Assembly (NCBI GenBank): GCA_005790505.1
Contig: SXUP01000004.1
Coordinates: forward strand, 1 to 64,000
Reading direction: 5' to 3'
Source: Actinomycetota bacterium
Lineage (GTDB): Bacteria > Actinomycetota > Acidimicrobiia > Acidimicrobiales > Ilumatobacteraceae
DNA length: 64,000 nucleotides
The translations under genes and the position numbers were made by a program. The notes below the pieces were generated by a model. That model searched no databases. It was given only the letters and a program-made list of their open reading frames with translations, and was not told the origin of the DNA. Of the stretch, positions 13,899 through 16,865 are shown one piece after another (positions within the stretch are counted from its first letter, which is position 1; each line of letters starts with the position of its first letter).

Positions 13899-14749
13899 TG
13901 TGACACTTTTGCTCTTTGTGAGGTGTACATATATATAAATGTTGCAGACACAATGGTAATGCATACTGCGCCAATACGCAGAGCACCTTGATCTTGCAAG
14001 AAAATTGCAATTCGTGATTGCCAACTATCAATTTTTGAGACAACTATATTGGCATTCTTTCTTTCAGAAATGGCATCCCACCAATACAGCGTGAGGTATA
14101 CGCCTGTAAGAGTCACAAAAATTGCTGAGATGGTGTCCATGTAACGCAGTCCACGTCGCAAAACCCGCAGCAGACCAGTATGTGCCACCGACAATGTCAG
14201 TGTGAGTGCGGTGACCAACAGGGCCATTCCCAGCCCGTACAGCGCAATGCTGACTACTCCTGCAATAAATCCGTGTTTGCCAATTGAACCGAGAACAACA
14301 GTTGTCAATAGACCAATAGTGCAGCCAATGGATGCAATGGCGTATGCAAGACCAAAAACGAACATAGAGCGGATGCTTTGATCCCGAGTTATTTTGATGT
14401 TCGGAGTCAAGATGGAAGGCTTCCAGCCGGCCAGCATGACAAGACCAAAGACAATTAGTCCGAGCCCGATCGCGAATGAAAAATATTTCGCATTATCTTG
14501 AACAGCAGAACTCAAAAGACGAGTAAATACCCCAACGACAATGAATAATGAGATAAATCCAGCGGAGACCGCAACACTCACTCGTAGTGCACGTGAAAGT
14601 GATGCTCGTTGCGAGATATTTGATTGCGATGTTTCTGATCCGAGAAAATAAATCAAGTAAGTGGGCAATAAAACAAAGCCACACGGATTTACTGCAGCTA
14701 GTACACCGGCGATAAAACTGTAGGCGAAGTTACCCTCTAGAGCGATCAA
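13895..14749 (-). CDS. CcdA/DsbD-type thiol-disulfide membrane transporter
   Basis: A 284-residue membrane protein of the cytochrome c biogenesis CcdA family, which carries reducing equivalents across the membrane to extracytoplasmic thioredoxins. The first redox Cys is in the typical motif VNPCGFVLLPTYLIYF; the second is in ASIGCTIGLLTTVV. Six to seven helices are visible. It overlaps tlpA upstream and the PGA hydrolase downstream by ATGA at both ends. With the adjacent TlpA-like protein it should form a reductant relay, plausibly for heme attachment to the Cys-x-x-Cys-His site of CtaC. Confidence 0.9.
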   Translation of the reverse strand: MIALEGNFAYSFIAGVLAAVNPCGFVLLPTYLIYFLGSETSQSNISQRASLSRALRVSVAVSAGFISLFIVVGVFTRLLSSAVQDNAKYFSFAIGLGLIVFGLVMLAGWKPSILTPNIKITRDQSIRSMFVFGLAYAIASIGCTIGLLTTVVLGSIGKHGFIAGVVSIALYGLGMALLVTALTLTLSVAHTGLLRVLRRGLRYMDTISAIFVTLTGVYLTLYWWDAISERKNANIVVSKIDSWQSRIAIFLQDQGALRIGAVCITIVSATFIYMYTSQRAKVSQ

Positions 14750-15330
14750 GGTGACACTCCAAAATATTTGTAGATATATGAATCAAGTTGTTTTTTGGTT
14801 ACTTCACCAGCGTGTTGCTTGCGAATAATTCCGGAAGCATCTATGAATAACGTGACCGGCATGATACCGACACCTGAGGCGACCAAAGCGTCACCTGTTG
14901 GATCCAGATAGATCGGATAATTCGCACCGTATTTTTTGGCAAATCGCATTGCAAGTTCGGCATCGTCAATGGGGTTGATGCCGGCAAAATCAATCTGCGG
15001 AGAATATTTTATTGCCGCCTGACCAAGGGTCGGTAGTTCACGCTTGCAGGGGACACAGGCGGAGTACCAAAAGTTAACCACCAGGGGTGTTCCCTTCGCC
15101 TTCACGGTGGCCTCAGTTTCGTTGGCCGCCGCAATGACATTTAGTGAAGGAAACAACTTCCCCTGGACAGGCGCATTGGTTCCAAGTGTTGGATCCTGCA
15201 CGACACCTGGTGTGGTCATGTTGGCGTCGACTCCGTTGTCCGAAGTACGGCTCAAAAGCCAACCCCCGACAACGGAGACGACAAGCATTCCTGTGCTGAG
15301 CCATGTGATGAATGGTCGCGTCAACTTCAC
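14746..15330 (-). CDS. TlpA-like membrane-anchored thioredoxin
   Basis: A 194-residue protein with an N-terminal signal anchor (WLSTGMLVVSVVGGWLL) and an extracytoplasmic thioredoxin fold. The active site is CVPC in VVNFWYSACVPCKREL, and the cis-Pro loop is GIMPVTLFID. The family reduces disulfides or apocytochromes outside the cell membrane and receives electrons from CcdA-type proteins such as the next gene. The start is GTG 15330, only 4 bases after the whiB7 stop, so it belongs to the whiB7 transcript. Confidence 0.92.
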   Translation of the reverse strand: MKLTRPFITWLSTGMLVVSVVGGWLLSRTSDNGVDANMTTPGVVQDPTLGTNAPVQGKLFPSLNVIAAANETEATVKAKGTPLVVNFWYSACVPCKRELPTLGQAAIKYSPQIDFAGINPIDDAELAMRFAKKYGANYPIYLDPTGDALVASGVGIMPVTLFIDASGIIRKQHAGEVTKKQLDSYIYKYFGVSP

Positions 15331-15334
15331 ATGG

Positions 15335-15691
15335 TCAGGCTACGAGGTGAGCAGGGATTGGTACCTCCTCGATCACCACAACAGGTCGTAGTTTTGTTGG
15401 AGGTCTGCCACGGGGCTTTTTCACTGCAACAATCTTGCCCATATCCAGCAACTGGCCACCCCAGACACCCCAAGGCTCCTGTCGATCAAGAGCGGTGCTG
15501 AGACATTCTGTTTGGGAAGAGCATTTGGCACAGATGGCCTTGGCTCGTTGAATATCAACGTATTCCTCCGAGAAGAACAGATACGACAAGGTTCCGTTCC
15601 CGTCCGAGCATCGTTTTGCCGACAGCACCATTGGCTGCTCAAGCATGGTGGCATGTTTTTCGGTTTTTTCATTTTCCAGTAGTGCGTACAT
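15335..15691 (-). CDS. whiB7: WhiB7-type Fe-S transcriptional regulator with AT-hook
   Basis: A 118-residue Wbl protein. The four cluster Cys are C28, C54, C57 and C63; the turn motif is EPWGVWGG (72-79). What follows, DMGKIVAVKKPRGRPPTK, matches the arrangement of WhiB7 proteins, where a Gly-x-Ile-Val stretch leads into an RGRP AT-hook that binds AT-rich promoter DNA next to sigma-A. WhiB7 in mycobacteria and Streptomyces activates resistance to ribosome-targeting drugs. ATG 15691 is preceded by AAAGGA at good spacing, so I prefer it over the ATG at 15733. The upstream region carries a short ORF and an intrinsic terminator, as in known whiB7 leaders. Confidence 0.9.
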   Translation of the reverse strand: MYALLENEKTEKHATMLEQPMVLSAKRCSDGNGTLSYLFFSEEYVDIQRAKAICAKCSSQTECLSTALDRQEPWGVWGGQLLDMGKIVAVKKPRGRPPTKLRPVVVIEEVPIPAHLVA

Positions 15692-15752
15692 TTCTGTGTC
15701 CTTTCGTGTGTTGCTTGTTGATGGATAAATCATTGAATTGAGGCGGTAAATG

Positions 15753-15787
15753 CAAAAAGGCCGCTCGGGTTTTGTTCCCGGCGGCCT
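15753..15787 (-). terminator. Intrinsic terminator/attenuator in whiB7 leader
   Basis: On the minus strand AGGCCGCCGGG (15787-15777), a 7-base loop and CCCGAGCGGCCT (15769-15758) form a GC-rich stem of 11 pairs with one bulge, directly followed by TTTTT. It lies 20 bases after the stop of the short upstream ORF and about 60 bases before the whiB7 start, so read-through is needed to express whiB7. The same arrangement is known from actinobacterial whiB7 leaders. Confidence 0.8.
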
Positions 15788-15796
15788 CTGTGATTT

Positions 15797-15815
15797 TGAT
15801 GTAACTGTTACATCA
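15797..15815. repeat. Perfect 19-bp palindrome at end of whiB7 leader ORF
   Basis: TGATGTAACTGTTACATCA is a perfect inverted repeat with 9-base arms around a single central base. It spans the stop codon of the leader ORF and lies just before the terminator. In DNA form it resembles a dimer operator; in RNA form the arms could pair with a short loop and interfere with the terminator or ribosome. Which applies cannot be told from sequence. Confidence 0.6.
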
Positions 15816-15990
15816 GAACCTGGATGCGATGCCGAGTGGAGCGATAATTGAAATGCTTCATCGTCTGTGGATTTTTAAACCACATTGCATAATGAGCAGT
15901 CGCTACCGCGGAAAATGCTCGTGATGACATAGCAAAAGCCACGGCTAGTGCCGTGGTCGCTGTTGTCGCAGAGGAAAGCATCAATCGCAT
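15808..15990 (-). CDS. Putative whiB7 leader peptide (upstream ORF)
   Basis: A 60-codon ORF between a promoter-like sequence and the whiB7 attenuator. The peptide starts MRLMLSSATTATTALAVAF, has a hydrophobic N-terminal half and a basic C-terminal third (STRHRIQVLM). I recognise no homolog. The ATG lies 4 bases after a TATAAC -10 element, so the message would be leaderless or nearly so. Translation or stalling on such ORFs controls the terminator in known whiB7 leaders; by analogy this is probably a sensor of translation rather than a working protein. Confidence 0.6.
   Translation of the reverse strand: MRLMLSSATTATTALAVAFAMSSRAFSAVATAHYAMWFKNPQTMKHFNYRSTRHRIQVLM
15939..15956 (-). repeat. 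Hairpin inside whiB7 leader ORF
   Basis: CCACGGC, a four-base loop and GCCGTGG form a perfect 7-bp stem. On the minus strand it is followed by CTTTTG, a weak terminator-like tract. It lies in the first third of the leader ORF, where a translating ribosome would melt it, and so may be the first of two regulatory hairpins. Confidence 0.5.
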
Positions 15991-15994
15991 AAGG

Positions 15995-16022
15995 GTTATA
16001 GGAAACCACCTATCTGGTTCAA
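15995..16022 (-). promoter_or_regulatory. Predicted promoter for the whiB7 operon
   Basis: On the minus strand TTGAAC (16022-16017) and TATAAC (16000-15995) are separated by 16 bases, a reasonable sigma-A promoter. The transcript would begin at or beside the ATG of the leader ORF (15990). No competing better match was seen between this and whiB7. Confidence 0.5.
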
Positions 16023-16079
16023 AGTCAAGTGGTTATCCACAGATATTGGCAAACCCTTGTGTTGTATGGCTTTAAGCGG

Positions 16080-16100: not shown

Positions 16101-16865
16101 ATGACATTTGGGTCCGCGGCACTTGATTTTGAGATGATATCCAAGCCGAGTTCTGGCCGATTCTTCTCGGTGGTGCGGCGAGTGAGGCTTGGTGATGTGA
16201 GCCCTGGGGGGCGCCTGCGCCTAGACGCACTTGTGCAGTATCTACAAGATGTCTCCAACGATGATTCGCGTGATGCATCTTGGAGCGATCCGCACGGCTG
16301 GGTCGTTCGACGAACAGTTTTAGATATCCATGAGGTTGCTAAGTATTTACAAGAAGTCCGACTGACAACCTGGTGTGGTGGTCTTGGTTCGCATTGGGCA
16401 GAACGTCGCACGCAAGTTTGCACTCTTGACGGTGCAGTTCTGATTGACGCAGCAACTCTGTGGGTGCATATTGATATGCAAACTATGAAGCCATTGGTCG
16501 TCCCACAAGATGTAGTTGATGTTGTTCATGACACAACAGAAGGACGTAAAGTGTCATCTCGATTGATGCTCAAAGGGGCTGTTGTGACTCCGACGCATGT
16601 GTTGTCGTGGCCACTGCGTTTTACTGATTTTGACACGCTCGGCCATGTGAACAATGCAGCGTATTGGCAAGTAACAGAAGAACTTCTGGGCATGTATCCC
16701 AAGATTCGGCAAAACATGCGAGCAATTATTGAGCATGTCAATCCAATTGACCCCGGGACAATAATTGAAATTGAGGTAGGCGAGACATCACAAACCAATG
16801 TGGCGGTCATGCTACGTAGCAATTTAGGCGTGCACGCCACAATGTGGCTCGGGCTGCGTCGTTAG
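16101..16865 (+). CDS. Acyl-ACP thioesterase family protein
   Basis: A 254-residue double hot-dog protein of the FatA/FatB-like acyl-ACP thioesterase family, which releases fatty acids from acyl carrier protein. The N-terminal hot-dog has RRVRLGDVSPGGRLRLDALVQYLQD and the DPHGWVVRR strand; the second begins near FTDFDTLGHVNNAAYW, the hot-dog helix signature with the conserved Asn-Asn. Actinobacterial members are mostly uncharacterised. The gene is convergent with and overlaps the MBL hydrolase by 4 bases at their 3' ends. A hairpin sits over its start. Confidence 0.85.
   Translation: MTFGSAALDFEMISKPSSGRFFSVVRRVRLGDVSPGGRLRLDALVQYLQDVSNDDSRDASWSDPHGWVVRRTVLDIHEVAKYLQEVRLTTWCGGLGSHWAERRTQVCTLDGAVLIDAATLWVHIDMQTMKPLVVPQDVVDVVHDTTEGRKVSSRLMLKGAVVTPTHVLSWPLRFTDFDTLGHVNNAAYWQVTEELLGMYPKIRQNMRAIIEHVNPIDPGTIIEIEVGETSQTNVAVMLRSNLGVHATMWLGLRR

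Follow-up and report, generated by a model that had tools for sequence, protein, structure and literature searches.

In this uncultured freshwater actinobacterium, the DNA upstream of whiB7 can, with high probability, be read as an attenuator of the whiB7/wblC type, in which ribosomes control transcription by the mechanism set out below; it is very likely that the known switch, by which a slowing of ribosomes induces whiB7, is at work here as well. Such a switch, composed of an upstream open reading frame (uORF) and a terminator, has been documented for mycobacteria and Streptomyces (PMC11550727; PMC13393426; PMC4128351). In the window (that is, the whole stretch of 64,000 nucleotides that was analyzed), a promoter, the uORF, a palindrome spanning the stop codon of the uORF, an intrinsic terminator, a Shine-Dalgarno sequence and whiB7 follow one another in this order from 5' to 3' (Table 1), and the leader elements that an earlier note had placed at 15753-16022 all lie there on the minus strand. 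The identification is based on a conserved layout, a persistent hairpin at the uORF stop and compensatory pairing between the uORF and the terminator. The earlier note's interpretation as a whiB7-type attenuation leader is upheld by the correct gene, a conserved uORF and terminator, covarying helices and an AT-rich WhiB7 box.

Table 1. Elements of the whiB7 leader and neighboring genes, with the evidence for each.
Feature	Position	Strand	Evidence or remark
Acyl-ACP thioesterase gene	16101-16865	plus	divergent neighbor upstream
Candidate WhiB7 autoregulatory box GATAAC	16032-16037	minus	3 nt upstream of -35
-35 hexamer TTGACT	16023-16028	minus	aligned with TTGAC(N) of family leaders
Extended -10, TGG + TTTCCT (TTTCCT 16005-16000)	16000-16008	minus	17 nt after -35; conserved in family
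uORF, 60 codons, predicted leaderless	15808-15990	minus	ATG 15990, TAA 15810-15808
Hairpin CCACGGC-ACTA-GCCGTGG (uORF nt 35-52)	15939-15956	minus	-12.6 kcal/mol; candidate RNA polymerase pause hairpin
Antiterminator 5' segment CTCGGC inside uORF	15831-15836	minus	pairs with 15782-15777 (GCCGGG)
Palindromic hairpin over uORF stop, TGATGTAA-CAG-TTACATCA	15797-15815	minus	z-scores, co-varying arms
Intrinsic terminator: GC-rich stem, one bulged A, then TTTTT	15754-15788	minus	energy, pairing, class motif
Shine-Dalgarno of whiB7, GAAAGGA	15699-15705	minus	sequence; 7 nt before ATG
whiB7, 118 aa	15335-15691	minus (ATG 15691)	PF02467, EPWGVWGG, AT-hook RGRP, PDB match
TlpA/ResA-like thiol-disulfide oxidoreductase gene	14746-15330	minus	Redoxin / AhpC-TSA / DsbE matches

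Judged by its sequence, the product of the gene downstream of the leader is a true WhiB7. It matches the Pfam Whib family with 48.8 bits, its best PDB match is WhiB7 of M. tuberculosis (7kif, E 3e-17), and it can be aligned with WhiB7 proteins of the Acidimicrobiia, Mycobacterium-like and Streptomyces-like types. The four Cys, the EPW-GVWGG sequence and the AT-hook that characterize whiB7/wblC are all present, and among the seven Wbl genes of the genome this is the only one in which EPWGVWGG and RGRP occur together. The ribosome-binding site of its own with which the gene had been credited is also in place. The named neighbors in a genome scan are Ilumatobacteraceae, acIV and other Acidimicrobiia, which makes a freshwater bacterium of the Ilumatobacteraceae type, with a 2-Mb genome, the most likely source of the window. 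An ortholog was found in 52 of 61 relatives, and in 52 of the 119 class members sampled. Some relatives (G062, G087; loci L060, L063, L071, L103-L105) carry two or three whiB7-like genes, and several of the copies have no attenuator. Most of the aligned orthologs terminate in -VA, -TA, -IA or -AA, an ending similar to that of degradation tags at the C-terminus (the C-terminus of the window protein lies near 15338). In addition, three Acidimicrobiia-type whiB7 loci (L127, L168, L187) come from metagenome-assembled genome records titled Bifidobacterium breve or Terriglobia, which look misnamed.

The layout of the leader was evaluated in 150 distinct whiB7 leaders with a terminator, mostly from Acidimicrobiia, using dinucleotide-shuffled leaders as controls. 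For each leader, the longest ATG/GTG ORF ending at most 80 nt from the terminator arm was taken, so that the ORF was not chosen by its distance. This ORF had at least 36 codons in 147 of the 150 leaders (33% in shuffles), with a median of 61 codons, and in 133 of them an ORF of this length had its stop 20-33 nt before the terminator arm, compared with 5.9% of the shuffled leaders. Thus, the comparison of relatives' leaders that had been suggested as a check of the earlier reading found the uORF and terminator conserved. A standard terminator scan missed the window terminator because of its bulged A, flagging the early uORF hairpin instead, and a strict finder missed most members of the genus until bulges were permitted; no terminator was detectable in 17 of 196 loci, some of which are second whiB7-like copies (L060, L063, L071, L104, L105). 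Searched with a covariance model built from the terminator and the 3' end of the uORF, no genome of the genus gave more than one match, which adjoined whiB7. On this comparative evidence, the whiB7/wblC attenuator is conserved in Acidimicrobiia, and a text search of open-access papers naming both whiB7 and Acidimicrobi- returned no mention of a whiB7 leader in this class.

The nature of the promoter had to be revised. The string TTGAAC-N16-TATAAC, previously proposed as the promoter, is indeed present, but it is not the homologous one, since relatives share the register of TTGACT-N17-TTTCCT, 8-10 nt before the ATG. The family consensus is TTGAC-N17-TGGTT(T/G)(C/G)(C/A)T, located 8-10 nt before the uORF ATG, and the window version, TTGACT-N17-TTTCCT, leaves 9 nt between the -10 hexamer and the ATG. 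The TATAAC position reads TGTAAC in the two closest relatives. As a -10 hexamer TATAAC was rejected: being only 4 nt before the ATG, it would make transcription begin within the start codon. The 5' leader predicted from the homologous promoter is 0-3 nt long, and the 60-codon ORF is still predicted to be leaderless, as had been proposed; the ATG being only 9 nt from the -10 hexamer, there is no room for a leader with a Shine-Dalgarno sequence, and none occurs upstream of the window uORF, in contrast to the mycobacterial subtype of the attenuator. Upstream of the -35 hexamer, the sequence points to an AT-rich box of the WhiB7 type, through which WhiB7 itself probably activates the promoter. The candidate GATAAC matches five of the six positions of the WblC motif GAAAWY, which sits 3 nt before the -35 hexamer (PMC7157823), and a WhiB7/WblC site comparable to the A+T-rich box found here has been described (PMC3905903). 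Across 45 leaders, A+T makes up 84% of the 7 nt located at -10 to -4 before the -35, a figure somewhat inflated by picking the most A+T-rich among several promoter candidates, versus 43% further upstream; the window box (GATAAC-N3-TTGACT) has a lower A+T content than that of most relatives. A search of the window's own genome with TTGACN14-16GTGGTT yielded no excess of matches (13, and 11 for the reversed control), and the two non-whiB7 matches of the longer TTGACN14-16GTGGTTTCCT fall inside other coding genes.

A leaderless uORF is predicted throughout the window's genus and in some neighbors (L058, L062, L067, L070, L073), and a leader before the uORF is retained in others (L059, L061, L066, L044, L053); as both kinds occur among neighbors, there has probably been more than one change in the leaderless start. 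Homologs of conserved length, aligned in one frame, were found at 29 other loci of the family. Values of pN/pS between 0 and 0.52 in selected close pairs, together with a median dN/dS of about 0.6 among all pairs of moderate divergence, suggest moderate purifying selection, although RNA-structure constraint on synonymous sites blurs this test. Within the genus the peptide follows the pattern TTATAVAFAYA..AMW..KHxNKR, and in the family the uORFs contain 19.6% Ala and 14.2% Thr (against 10.5% and 6.0% in the long ORFs of the window) and nearly no Asp, Glu or Cys. This richness in Ala and Thr recalls the reported response of mycobacterial whiB7 to alanine starvation. Throughout the genus, a hairpin occupies nt 35-52 of the uORF (family mean z of -2.7 for uORF nt 25-72), and none was seen at that position in the other leaders examined. 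It may cause RNA polymerase to pause, a role suggested by analogy with trp-type attenuators.

The perfect palindrome across the uORF stop and the GC-rich stem followed by TTTTT, both claimed in the earlier note, were confirmed. The palindrome TGATGTAACAGTTACATCA (15815-15797) spans 19 nt and contains the stop TAA. Its z-score is -3.67 in the window, compared with means of -2.88 in 31 leaders of the family and -2.1 in 64 others, and in both groups the structure peaks sharply at the uORF stop. The arms co-vary, and even a change between TAA and TAG at the stop is accompanied by a matching change in the opposite arm; the pairs were taken from per-sequence folds and are canonical by construction, which leaves the z-scores as the test. 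Evaluation per sequence, rather than by alignment counts, was necessary because MAFFT misaligned the 3' arm of this helix. The terminator, GAGGCCGCCGGG-AACAAAA-CCCGAGCGGCC-TTTTT (15788-15754), forms a hairpin of about -22 kcal/mol; its stem is paired in 94.6% of cells over 24 leaders and contains the motif AGGCCG(C/T)CGGG across the class. By itself its covariation is weak, since the stem hardly varies. It is not the terminator of a gene further upstream, because the acyl-ACP thioesterase gene on that side lies on the plus strand and points away.

A third helix links these elements. In the family, the uORF sequence CCCGGC(N)GCC pairs with GGC(N)GCCGGG in the 5' arm of the terminator, giving an antiterminator helix within which the stop-codon hairpin is nested. 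In 24 leaders, 92.6% of its cells are paired and three pairs are changed on both sides; its covariation score was equaled by only 1 of 500 shuffles, and versions slid along the alignment were at most 54% paired. The helix of the window is among the weakest of the family (six contiguous pairs, one of them a U-G wobble), with a duplex energy no better than that of shuffles (z of -0.32). When the transcript is cut before the 3' arm of the terminator, however weak this helix, the predicted pairing probability between arm and uORF in the window is 0.99 versus 0.69 with a shuffled uORF (1 of 100 shuffles as high). Structurally, then, the antiterminator consists of a covarying helix in the family and of one predicted in the window before the 3' arm is made, between which and the terminator the transcript is predicted to switch. 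As the full terminator state is about 13 kcal/mol more stable than the truncated pre-terminator state, antitermination must be kinetic. Given its weak helix, the window switch may be leakier or tighter than those of its relatives.

The proposed mechanism is as follows. Transcription would begin 0-3 nt before the uORF ATG, at a SigA-type promoter probably activated by WhiB7. Under normal translation, the ribosome would reach the uORF stop and cover or open the antiterminator segment and the stop-codon hairpin; with its 5' arm thus left available, the terminator would form and RNA polymerase would stop before whiB7. If ribosomes stall or slow down in the uORF, because of translation inhibitors or possibly of amino-acid shortage, the CTCGGC region would pair with GCCGGG in the terminator arm ahead of the synthesis of the 3' arm, with the stop hairpin held in the loop. 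The polymerase would then continue into whiB7 and the adjacent tlpA-like gene, and WhiB7 would amplify the response through its own promoter.

Other explanations were weighed against this mechanism. The conservation of the uORF peptide within the genus and its pN/pS below 1 could indicate that it is a functional small protein, with the hairpin as its terminator and whiB7 expressed through leaky, unregulated read-through. This is, in our estimation, quite improbable: the peptide sequence is strongly divergent beyond the genus, whereas the spacing from stop to terminator, the stop hairpin and the antiterminator pairing persist, and its composition is skewed (rich in Ala and Thr, almost without Asp and Glu), with no match in Pfam or NCBIfam. 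It is even harder to sustain that the palindrome acts as DNA, the operator of a dimeric repressor, and not as an RNA hairpin. In the window its 19 nt are perfectly palindromic, as might be expected of such an operator, but its sequence varies by clade (GATGTAAC, GAACTAG, GATCTAG, GACGTAA) with the pairing kept, and its position is locked to the uORF stop. Just as little credence is given to direct sensing of a metabolite or tRNA, as in a riboswitch or a T-box, in place of ribosome progress. Although a structured 5' leader with a terminator would fit it, the structure is centered on the uORF and the stop codon of this ORF, and an Rfam scan for riboswitch and T-box families gave no match even at E <= 1.

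The control by the attenuator probably extends to the genes that follow whiB7. The tlpA-like gene begins 4 nt after the whiB7 stop, and it is followed by a gene for a polytopic membrane protein with the motif VNPCGFxLLP (both within 15330-13895, minus strand), a motif typical of CcdA/DsbD proteins; NCBIfam gave no family match for this protein. Of the 27 genus-level loci that could be tested, 23 have a thioredoxin-like CxxC ORF after whiB7, again with a gap of 4 nt in nearly all of those listed; such an ORF lies near whiB7 in only 5 of 43 other loci. Since the TlpA-like gene starts so close to whiB7, gene order suggests that whiB7 and the redox genes probably form one operon under control of the switch in this clade. 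A tentative and more doubtful extension is that in freshwater Ilumatobacteraceae-type bacteria the attenuator has become leaderless and controls a whiB7-tlpA-ccdA-like operon, so that ribosome slowdown would induce a thiol-redox module along with WhiB7; given the Ala/Thr-rich uORF, alanine shortage would be among the triggers. If this were true, the ancestral role of the system would be a general response to translation and nutrient stress with redox adjustment, and not antibiotic resistance, and the spectrum of inducing drugs would be set by leaderless initiation on 70S ribosomes.

These observations extend an antibiotic-sensing RNA switch, for which experiments in mycobacteria and Streptomyces exist, to a deep-branching, mostly uncultured class of the phylum. 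Because the uORF, the stop-codon hairpin, the terminator and the WhiB7 box occur on both sides of the split between the classes, the sequences indicate that the switch probably predates it. Its retention in freshwater genomes of 2 Mb suggests that it pays off outside antibiotic warfare. Moreover, a structural model that can be tested, an antiterminator with a nested stop-codon hairpin, emerges from comparing about 150 leaders.

The whiB7/wblC attenuator of mycobacteria and Streptomyces is reportedly the subject of Lee 2022 (mmi.14834), said to be the key study, and accounts of the mycobacterial whiB7 and the Streptomyces wblC attenuators are attributed to Poulton 2024 and Yoo 2016, respectively. 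Like the mycobacterial attenuator, the window leader has an Ala-rich uORF followed by an intrinsic terminator and then whiB7, as well as an AT-rich WhiB7 box before the -35; the spacing from stop to terminator is 21-24 nt in two of the Mycobacterium-like leaders compared. Mycobacterial uORFs have a strong Shine-Dalgarno about 10 nt upstream (Dinan 2014, PMC4128351), with energies of -12.4 to -12.5 kcal/mol in Mycobacterium-like leaders (L090, L092, L094), whereas the uORF of the window genus is leaderless and bears the 5' hairpin at nt 35-52. The terminator arms also differ (GGCCACGGACCC versus GGCCGCCGGG). The Streptomyces wblC attenuator, represented by leaders that we infer to be from Streptomyces (L099-L101), shares the uORF and terminator with the same spacing (22-23 nt), and leaders of this type also have a palindrome across the uORF stop (GCCTGATCGTCGATCAGGC in L099); in contrast, the peptide is different, the terminator reads GGGCCGCGGAACCC, and about 310 nt separate it from the gene, instead of about 65. 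A leaderless short ORF serving as a translation-sensing attenuator is also found in the polycysteine leaders of mycobacteria, reportedly described in Canestrari 2020 (cited in PMC13236596), but these sense cysteine by runs of Cys codons, and the window uORF has no Cys. The locus is best placed as a whiB7/wblC attenuator, with the leaderless uORF and the genus-level 5' hairpin as local variations.
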